64,000 nucleotides of DNA, from NCBI GenBank assembly GCA_903910745.1, contig CAIWAO010000139.1, positions 1 through 64,000 on the forward strand. The letters run 5' to 3'. The position numbers were made by a program, and so were the translations under genes. The stretch is from an uncultured Burkholderiales bacterium. GTDB lineage: Bacteria; Pseudomonadota; Gammaproteobacteria; Burkholderiales; Burkholderiaceae_C. This document shows, in pieces, positions 58,895 to 60,274 of this stretch. Every line of letters starts with the position of its first letter. Position 1 is the stretch's first letter. The notes under the pieces were generated by a model. The model saw only the letters and a program-made list of their open reading frames with translations, was not told the DNA's origin and ran no database searches.

Positions 58895-58922
58895 TTGTTC
58901 TATTTTCAATTTTGGTTACAAT
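58895..58922 (+). promoter_or_regulatory. Promoter of metK
   Basis: TACAAT (-10, 58917-58922) lies 16 bases after TTGTTC (-35, 58895-58900, weak). The expected start of transcription, about 58929, coincides with the first base of the riboswitch P1 stem, which supports both calls. Confidence 0.5.
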
Positions 58923-58928
58923 ACAGAT

Positions 58929-59036
58929 TGTCGCTGAGTTAATGAAGCAACTTGCAGGGCGACACATACAGGGCAACCTGTGTATGAAATCTGGGTCAAA
59001 CTGGGTCTCATTTCTGCTAAAGCGTTCGCCGAAGCT
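58929..59036 (+). promoter_or_regulatory. SAM-II (SAM_alpha)-type riboswitch with enlarged loop, upstream of metK
   Basis: P1 is TGTCGC (58929-58934) with GCGACA (58959-58964). The loop starts TGAGTTAA (58935-58942), like the SAM-II TGATTTAA, and ends CTTGCAG (58951-58957), matching the family's TTGCA. GCTAAA (59016-59021) is the invariant 3' block. The pseudoknot strand TGAAGC (58943-58948) can pair with GCGTTCG (59022-59028) with one bulged G. Between P1 and GCTAAA lies an insertion with a GCAA-capped hairpin (58965-58986, two-base bulge) and GAAAT/ATTTC (58986-58990/59010-59014). Conserved pieces, order and the metK target agree with S-adenosylmethionine sensing. The large insertion and the T-to-G change in TGAGTTAA are unusual. 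Called from memory of the consensus, not from a covariance search. Confidence 0.75.
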
Positions 59037-59045
59037 CGCATTTTG

Positions 59046-59074
59046 AGTTGGCAACGCCCAAGCGTTTTTCAACT
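59046..59074 (+). promoter_or_regulatory. Leader hairpin before the metK ribosome binding site
   Basis: AGTTG (59046-59050) pairs with CAACT (59070-59074), enclosing AACGC (59053-59057) with GCGTT (59062-59066). It ends four bases before the GGAG ribosome binding site at 59079. AGTTG could instead pair with CAACT in the aptamer loop (58948-58952) and AACGC with the pseudoknot strand GCGTT at 59022, so this is a plausible expression platform. Confidence 0.5.
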
Positions 59075-59092
59075 AAATGGAGCTTTTTTTAC

Positions 59093-60274
59093 ATGTCTAA
59101 AGACTATCTCTTTACCTCTGAATCGGTCTCTGAGGGCCACCCCGACAAAGTAGCCGATCAAATATCTGATGCCATTTTAGATGCGATCTTTAAACAAGAT
59201 CCAAGATCCAGGGTAGCCGCTGAGACACTAACCAACACTGGTCTCGTAGTACTCGCAGGTGAGATCACAACAAACGCACACGTGGACTATATCCAAGTTG
59301 CAAGGGATACGATCAAACGCATTGGCTACGATAACACTGAATACGGTATCGACTATAAGGGTTGTGCAGTTATGGTTTGCTATGACAAGCAGTCCAACGA
59401 CATCGCACAAGGTGTGGATCACGCGTCCGATGATCATTTAAATACCGGCGCAGGTGACCAAGGTTTAATGTTCGGCTATGCTTGTAGCGAAACACCAGTT
59501 TTGATGCCTGCACCAATTTACTATGCCCACCGTCTGGTTGAGAGACAAGCAGAACTTAGGCGCGATGGGCGTTTGCCTTTCCTTCGCCCAGACGCAAAGA
59601 GTCAGGTGACAATGCGCTATGTTGACGGCAAGCCACACAGCATTGATACTGTTGTTTTGTCAACGCAACACAGCCCCGAGCAAAGCGATGGCGCAAAAAT
59701 GAAACAAAGCTTCGTTGATGCAATCATAGAAGAGATCATCAAACCTGTTTTACCTAAAGAGTGGTTAAAAGACACTAAATATTTGGTTAACCCAACAGGC
59801 CGATTTGTAGTTGGCGGTCCACAAGGTGACTGCGGCCTTACAGGTCGTAAGATCATTGTGGACACATACGGAGGTGCTTGCCCACACGGTGGTGGTGCGT
59901 TCTCTGGTAAAGATCCAACCAAGGTAGACCGCTCAGCCGCTTACGCCGCTCGTTATGTCGCAAAGAACATCGTAGCTGCAGGACTGGCAACTCAGTGTCA
60001 AATCCAAGTTGCTTACGCAATTGGTGTTGCTAAACCAATGAACATTACTGTGAATACTCACGGAACAGGCGTTATCTCAGATGAGAAGATTTCAGCATTG
60101 GTTAACGATCACTTTGATTTGCGTCCAAAAGGTATCATTCAAATGTTGAATTTGCTGCAACCCATTTATGAAAAATCAGCAGCTTACGGACACTTCGGTC
60201 GTGAAGAGCCCGAGTTCACATGGGAAAAGACCGATAAAGCAGCAGCTTTAAAAGCGGCAGCTGGCATCAAATAA
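59093..60274 (+). CDS. metK: S-adenosylmethionine synthetase
   Basis: Makes S-adenosylmethionine from methionine and ATP. The start ATG at 59093 gives [19 protein letters not shown] with the catalytic His; an earlier in-frame start at 59048 lies inside the leader hairpin and is rejected, and GGAG at 59079 supports the choice. The signatures [12 protein letters not shown] (near 117), GGGAFSGKD and the ATP-binding lysines are present. The length is 393 aa. Followed by a strong terminator, so it is a single-gene transcript under the SAM-II-like leader. Confidence 0.97.

Follow-up and report, generated by a model that had tools for sequence, protein, structure and literature searches.

The leader of metK in the 64,000-nucleotide stretch of DNA analysed here (the window), which belongs to the genus Limnohabitans and not to Polynucleobacter, very probably carries a divergent riboswitch of the SAM-II class that would control this gene. 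The candidate element occupies positions 58929-59030, where P1, a third strand and an H-type pseudoknot are arranged in SAM-II order, and it lies upstream of the metK start codon (ATG at 59093). Related elements precede metK in many Burkholderiales, where no control was known, and our results indicate that the Rfam SAM-II models miss a widespread branch. Moreover, the comparison of leaders suggests a metK-associated SAM-II subtype that probably acts on translation.

Neither SAM-II in betaproteobacteria nor translational SAM-II is new (papers are cited throughout for the passages that bear on each point). The preliminary description of this DNA, made from the sequence alone, regarded SAM-II as mainly alphaproteobacterial, a view that the published record does not bear out: Bordetella was among the SAM-II carriers in Corbino 2005 (PMC1273637), Barrick and Breaker 2007 (PMC2258182) mention SAM-II with terminators in betaproteobacteria, and the class has been reported from Alpha-, Beta- and Gammaproteobacteria (PMC2704228). 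Translational SAM-II is known from the metX structure (PMC6061858) and from S. meliloti metA (PMC9373788). In the open-access literature searched, no SAM-II-type element before metK in betaproteobacteria was described; nor did it yield the metK subtype with its U-to-G change in the core, the loop with two hairpins or the order of tandem copies, all presented below. Leyn et al. 2014 state, in the passage cited here, that attempts to find metK regulation in betaproteobacteria failed (PMC4239095); the candidate metK riboswitch is a testable answer to this stated gap.

Architecture and conservation of the metK leader

The preliminary description had proposed, at 58929-59036, a SAM-II-type riboswitch in front of a betaproteobacterial metK, with the SAM-II motif order, P1 TGTCGC/GCGACA and GCTAAA. 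All the named motifs were found where it had placed them: TGTCGC at 58929-58934, TGAGTTAA at 58935-58942, TTGCA at 58952-58956, GCGACA at 58959-58964 and GCTAAA at 59016-59021. In support of the proposed riboswitch, covariation, the homopurine pair, cross-detection through intermediates and the metK context all point in the same direction. Four predicted elements are seen when related leaders are compared: P1, a pseudoknot P2 in two parts, the homopurine pair of SAM-II, and a helix formed by the anti-Shine-Dalgarno and Shine-Dalgarno sequences. The features of the leader, with the evidence for each, are the following:

58917-58922 (+): -10-like hexamer TACAAT, read from the sequence; implied transcription start at about 58929
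58929-58934 (+): P1 5' strand, UGUCGC; covariation
58935-58941 (+): third strand, UGAGUUA, read from the sequence; G58938 in place of the first U of the SAM-II UUU
58941 and 58950 (+): homopurine pair, A58941 (within the third strand) with A58950; the position match to SAM-II is our own
58944-58948 (+): 5' strand of pseudoknot part P2b, GAAGC with one A bulged; covariation
58952-58957 (+): UUGCAG, with the UUGC core; GCAG at 58954-58957 is the P2a 5' strand
58959-58964 (+): P1 3' strand, GCGACA; covariation
58966-58983 (+): inserted hairpin 1, with a GCAA loop; folding of same-genus loops
58984-59011 (+): inserted hairpin 2; folding of same-genus loops
59014-59021 (+): P2a 3' strand CUGC (59014-59017), overlapping the GCUAAA core (59016-59021); sequence and covariation
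59022-59030 (+): strand 1 of the competing hairpin (GCGUU C GCC), complementary to 59050-59057 and overlapping the P2b 3' strand
59024-59027 (+): P2b 3' strand, GUUC; covariation
59032-59037 (+): anti-Shine-Dalgarno, AAGCUC, complementary to 59080-59085
59050-59057 (+): strand 2 of the competing hairpin, GGCAACGC; present across same-genus leaders, and own-leader pairing
59079-59085 (+): Shine-Dalgarno, GGAGCUU; sequence and pairing test
59093-60274 (+): metK, SAM synthetase; Pfam

The metK product shows three S-AdoMet_synt domains above the Pfam cut-off. As for the transcription start, which had been placed on the first base of P1, TACAAT would indeed put it near 58929, but a consensus promoter scan finds no promoter on the + strand at the window leader. 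Note that a -10-like hexamer lies just before the model start in 61 of the 68 metK leaders described below, against a rate of 0.105 in shuffles.

The leader is well conserved in the genus. A complete leader fitting the imposed core pattern is present in 33 of the 37 same-genus genomes, and one more (L053) is cut by a contig end; in three of the 37 no DNA match to the leader was found. P1 reads TGTCGC/GCGACA in 26 of the 33 leaders, and its 3' side is changed in the other 7. Exact copies of GCTAAAGCGTTCGCC occur in all nine same-family genomes of a 300-genome draw from the order, and the eight besides the window were read as metK leaders; outside the family the sequence recurs exactly once, in G241, where it does not belong to a leader.

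To extend the search, we used R1, a covariance model made from 12 related metK leaders, including one same-genus row and excluding the window, with P1 as its sole structure. P2 was not fitted by R1, because only P1 is modelled. At a threshold of E 0.01 per genome (E-values are rough), R1 matches 267 of 399 Burkholderiales genomes (119/159 genera), and it scores the window leader at 60.8 bits, with a rough E-value of 2.3e-12 in its own genome. Among 60 genomes from other classes of the phylum there were three matches, one of which coincides with a place matched by the Rfam model RF00521. In a draw from the class, 92 of 229 genomes were matched, 89 of them outside the family and order of the window; E 0.01 per genome was used for all three sets. 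SAM-II-type elements (class draw; L200-L211) thus look widespread in the class beyond Burkholderiales, with many of these 92 matches near the threshold; 2 of the 15 class-draw loci scanned reach the RF00521 cut-off. As a side observation, two metagenome bins labelled Rickettsia typhi and Bordetella parapertussis (L290 and L332) carry the leader pattern otherwise seen in Comamonadaceae-type records, and these labels are probably wrong for the contigs concerned.

Covariation was measured on 102 aligned matches, which include the R1 training sequences and seven second matches in the same loci. Standard pairs fill 90.2% of the pair cells, and two-sided changes occupy 201 cells, compared to 74.7 in shuffles. 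The covariation score was 0.329, against 0.147 in shuffled alignments (0/500 shuffles reach it) and at most 0.091 with slid partners; note that the shuffle control leaves relatedness in and the slid control removes it. Further pair types exceed the shuffles mildly (28 vs 25.2; 21/500). In P1, two-sided changes are seen at five of the six pairs, the outermost being weak (unpaired in 42/97). The pseudoknot strand had been described as pairing with the bases after GCTAAA, and both parts of the pseudoknot, GCAG/CTGC and GA(A)GC/GTTC with a single bulged A, covary among the related leaders. In all, 97.8% of the P2a cells are paired, one pair being A-U in 50 rows and G-C in 38, and P2b has two-sided changes at three of its four pairs, one of them G-C in 45 rows and A-U in 34; its outermost pair is weak (unpaired in 51/98).

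For SAM-II, a homopurine pair, either G-G or A-A, had been predicted by Barrick and Breaker 2007 to lie between P1 and the P2 5' strand (PMC2258182). We examined 160 distinct R1 matches, which are part of the Burkholderiales matches and include no Limnohabitans leader (those were analysed apart). This sample favours the metK type, because the leaders from which R1 was made are A-A and its matches were taken in part. Among the 154 matches that could be parsed (6 could not, and related genomes are not independent), the pair is A-A in 90, G-G in 59, A-G in 0, G-A in 2 and other in 3, so that A-A or G-G is kept in 149 of the 154, the equivalence of positions being our own.

The bases that contact SAM had been described as kept. 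This holds for the contact letters, which we transferred from SAM-V by our own mapping: the window keeps the UU of the third strand, the UU of UUGC, and the U and A of GCUAAA, and with them the sulfonium uridines, the adenine-contacting U and the carboxylate A as read from SAM-V (PMC6061858). The exception is in the third strand, where the usual UUU has lost its first U to G58938 (GAGUUA vs GAUUUA); under the same mapping, the SAM-V counterpart of this base is the pairing partner of the adenine-contacting U (PMC6061858). The third-strand base is G in 68 and U in 22 of the 90 A-A matches, and G in just one of the 59 G-G matches. One alternative, which we consider unlikely, is that the same fold serves another ligand, the U-to-G change re-tuning the pocket to a different SAM-cycle compound, such as SAH, methylthioadenosine or a polyamine, or altering its affinity for SAM. 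The near confinement of the G to A-A matches and its place opposite the adenine-contacting U fit such a change, as does the report of a spermidine-sensing close variant of a SAM aptamer (PMC10853860), but the remaining SAM-V-derived contacts (two sulfonium uridines, adenine U and carboxylate A) are kept in the window, the metK product makes SAM, and 10 of the 68 metK leaders retain the U.

The loop before GCTAAA had been described as about 50 bases larger than usual, with a GCAA-capped hairpin. Both the enlargement and the GCAA hairpin were found, but the loop holds two hairpins, at 58966-58983 and 58984-59011. Hairpins are present in the loops of 33/33 Limnohabitans leaders, with a GNRA loop in one hairpin in 22/33. 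Across the 54 broader metK leaders used below, the loop has 5 to 46 bases, a few of these lengths being overestimates of the parse, and hairpins form in many of the longer loops. An A-rich tract before the pseudoknot 3' strand, which is a SAM-II feature, occurs in none of the 33 Limnohabitans leaders and in 43 of the 54 broader ones. The two-hairpin loop is specific to the Limnohabitans lineage; an enlarged loop as such is known, since RF01726 was listed in 2010 as SAM-II long loops (PMC2864571).

Proposed control of metK translation

Pairing downstream of the aptamer was tested on 54 non-redundant metK leaders from the 68; one was dropped (no GCTAAAGC or no start codon), Limnohabitans L014 was added and the window was excluded. 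The anti-Shine-Dalgarno pairs with the Shine-Dalgarno of its own leader at -11.02 kcal/mol, compared to -8.09 between leaders (0/2000 permutations). The P2b 3' strand likewise prefers its own downstream region (-11.72 vs -10.91 kcal/mol, 0/2000), and the P2b strands prefer each other (-3.91 vs -3.16 kcal/mol, 2/2000), with two control pairings at 926/2000 and 146/2000. These own-leader pairings therefore support an anti-Shine-Dalgarno strand as well as a hairpin in competition with the pseudoknot.

When the pseudoknot strand was blocked in folding, access to the Shine-Dalgarno fell in 23 of the 33 Limnohabitans leaders (mean 0.30 to 0.12) and rose in 1; among the 54 broader leaders it fell in 16 and rose in 1. 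As a control, the next six bases were blocked instead: mean access then rose from 0.175 to 0.257 in the 54 broader leaders and fell from 0.30 to 0.252 in the 33 of Limnohabitans. In the window itself the Shine-Dalgarno is paired with or without the block (access 0.0/0.0), so the switch is not seen thermodynamically; note that folding of the leader as a single strand leaves pseudoknots out and therefore says little. Taken together, the pairing and access results give good support to the masking helix, and from them we infer the switching step, which may differ between lineages.

Terminators are rare in the metK type. By a crude test, which misses the visible terminator of the first copy at L131, a terminator follows 3 of the 90 A-A and 51 of the 59 G-G matches, and 65 of the 68 metK matches lack one. 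This rarity in the A-A metK type, together with the covariation between the anti-Shine-Dalgarno and the Shine-Dalgarno, suggests that SAM most likely turns metK translation off. At high SAM, the ligand would sit in the triplex of UGAGUUA and P2, the pseudoknot would hold GUUC, formation of the competing hairpin GCGUUCGCC/GGCAACGC would be blocked, and the anti-Shine-Dalgarno would mask the ribosome site. At low SAM, the competing hairpin would form and trap the anti-Shine-Dalgarno in its loop, and metK would be translated.

That the window leader acts instead by transcription termination, through AACGC CCAA GCGUUUUU at 59053-59069, is quite improbable. The sequence does show a short stem there with a U run behind it, and the stem is paired in the most stable fold. 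However, the three closest relatives (L002-L004) lack this stem, a terminator scan finds none at the window leader, and the A-A matches as a group have the low terminator count given above.

Relationship to SAM-II and SAM-V

A search with Rfam 15 gave, at the leader, nothing at the gathering threshold and no SAM-II, SAM-V (RF01826) or other SAM family at E<=10, and over the whole genome of origin neither RF01726 nor RF00521 matched the locus. Likewise, 11 sources with related metK leaders gave no SAM family match in Rfam at E up to 5. The best RF01726 match in the genome of origin (26.5 bits, L031) lies, by eye, inside a two-component-system coding sequence and was taken as chance; no element was seen by eye in the metX leader of this genome (L047). 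The preliminary description had itself held that the lack of a match to the SAM_alpha covariance model (RF00521) would count against its reading, and no such match exists at the locus. We keep the SAM-II reading through relatives, which appear to bridge this gap by an indirect link.

This bridge was built from matches in both directions. RF00521 matches 141 of 300 Burkholderiales genomes at E 0.01 (51/300 above its cut-off) and 0 of 14 control genomes. In loci that had been chosen by R1, it lands on the R1 place in 15 of 20 from Burkholderiales (7 above the cut-off) and in 11 of 15 from the class draw (2 at or above it). Conversely, when R1 was run on the 10 loci that score best with RF00521 in the Burkholderiales draw, it matched every one, in the same position as RF00521 and with E up to 4.4e-4. 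On loci from other classes, presumably alphaproteobacterial, R1 gives 7/17 matches, which are weak (E 0.013-0.42). Outside the class, 11 genomes whose RF00521 match exceeds the cut-off were compared, and R1 matches just one of them at E 0.01. In tandem loci RF00521 falls on the terminator-type copy only; it fails to reach the metK type, both there and in the 11 sources with related metK leaders. The cross-matches therefore form a chain, from alpha-type SAM-II to the Burkholderiales terminator type and from this to the metK type, and no one model spans it.

Shared with SAM-II (RF00521, RF01726) are the order P1, third strand, UUGC, P1', GCUAAA, the H-type pseudoknot, the homopurine pair and the methionine/SAM gene context; Burkholderiales copies, for example the one before metX in L172, are matched by both R1 and RF00521. 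The metK element differs in scoring below the Rfam cut-offs, in having GAGUUA for GAUUUA, in preceding metK, in its A-A pair as opposed to the G-G of the terminator-type SAM-II copies, in its Shine-Dalgarno platform and, in Limnohabitans, in the two-hairpin loop. A protein-binding leader that merely resembles SAM-II is barely credible: the riboswitch reading does depend on comparison of sequences, but the core letters, the P1/P2 pseudoknot topology and the homopurine pair are kept, and the SAM-II cut-off is reached by related elements, metX leaders among them.

SAM-V (RF01826) is translational, as the metK element probably is, and resembles it in its SAM-II-like core and in following a SAM-II copy in tandem. 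In SAM-V the P1 3' strand is separated from the pseudoknot strand by a hairpin, P3 (PMC6061858), and the metK element has a hairpin there too; in Limnohabitans the first of the two occupies the topological place of P3. However, the Shine-Dalgarno of SAM-V is immediately 3' of the aptamer and is partly paired by it, whereas that of the metK element lies about 50 bases downstream, at 59079, and pairs with a separate anti-Shine-Dalgarno strand.

In 11 loci (L117, L121, L131, L139, L141, L169, L191, L195, L198, L207 and L210), the SAM-II-type place is overlapped by a sub-threshold match to RF02424 (Bp2_287), which is the family of a predicted Burkholderia sRNA; the match is on the opposite strand in all of them. 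The RF02424 family may be an antisense reading of a SAM-II leader.

Subtypes, downstream genes and tandem leaders

Genes downstream of the 160 matches were named by tblastn (E 1e-6) to our own set of named sequences. They are metK (68), a MATE transporter (28), metZ/Y (17), metX (14) and metH (7), with nothing named in 12 and other genes in the rest. Pfam supports MetK, and one metZ/Y, one MATE and one FMN-binding stretch pass their cut-offs; the metH stretch falls just short (21.5, with the cut-off at 22), the match of metX to TIGR01392 is also under the cut-off, and MetN and an HD protein were named by eye.

The metXZ RNA element of Leyn et al. 2014 is betaproteobacterial and pseudoknotted, and lies before metX/metZ, followed by terminators; in the passages cited it is described for metX/metZ only, not metK (PMC4239095). 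The R1 matches before metX and metZ/Y mostly have terminators, several of the matches score over the SAM-II cut-off, and they are probably this element, matched by its published description. This suggests that the metXZ element is SAM-II.

Twenty close tandem pairs were found (L117-L119, L121, L129-L131, L139-L141, L146, L147, L150, L227, L232, L236, L238, L240, L245 and L260). The first copy has a terminator in 19/20 by the test and in the twentieth (L131) by eye, and the second copy in 0/20. In 16 pairs a G-G copy with a terminator precedes an A-A copy without one; in one pair G-G precedes A-A with no terminator called, and three are odd or unparsed. The Pelagibacter bhmT leader carries SAM-II and then SAM-V (PMC11508383), and the Burkholderiales order is the one proposed for that leader. 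Such natural aptamer pairs, G-G mostly with and A-A mostly without a terminator, could show how a single fold is adapted to the control of either transcription or translation.

It is possible, and we put it forward tentatively, that SAM-II in Burkholderiales has split by its homopurine pair into two lineages, G-G copies driving terminators and A-A copies, mostly with the third-strand G, masking the ribosome site. Stacked in fixed order, often before a MATE operon, the two would make a two-step device, transcription and then translation, that parallels the Pelagibacter SAM-II/SAM-V leader, and the A-A lineage would supply the missing SAM feedback on metK.

Downstream of the tandem leaders, a MATE transporter match was seen in 12/20, in several of them after a short ORF seen by eye; three fragments of proteins downstream of tandem leaders gave no Pfam match. 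Finally, the methionine ABC transporter gene group is listed as unregulated in betaproteobacteria in the cited part of Leyn 2014 (PMC4239095), and at L191 a terminator-type SAM-II copy lies directly 5' of a protein that by eye resembles the methionine ABC transporter MetN.
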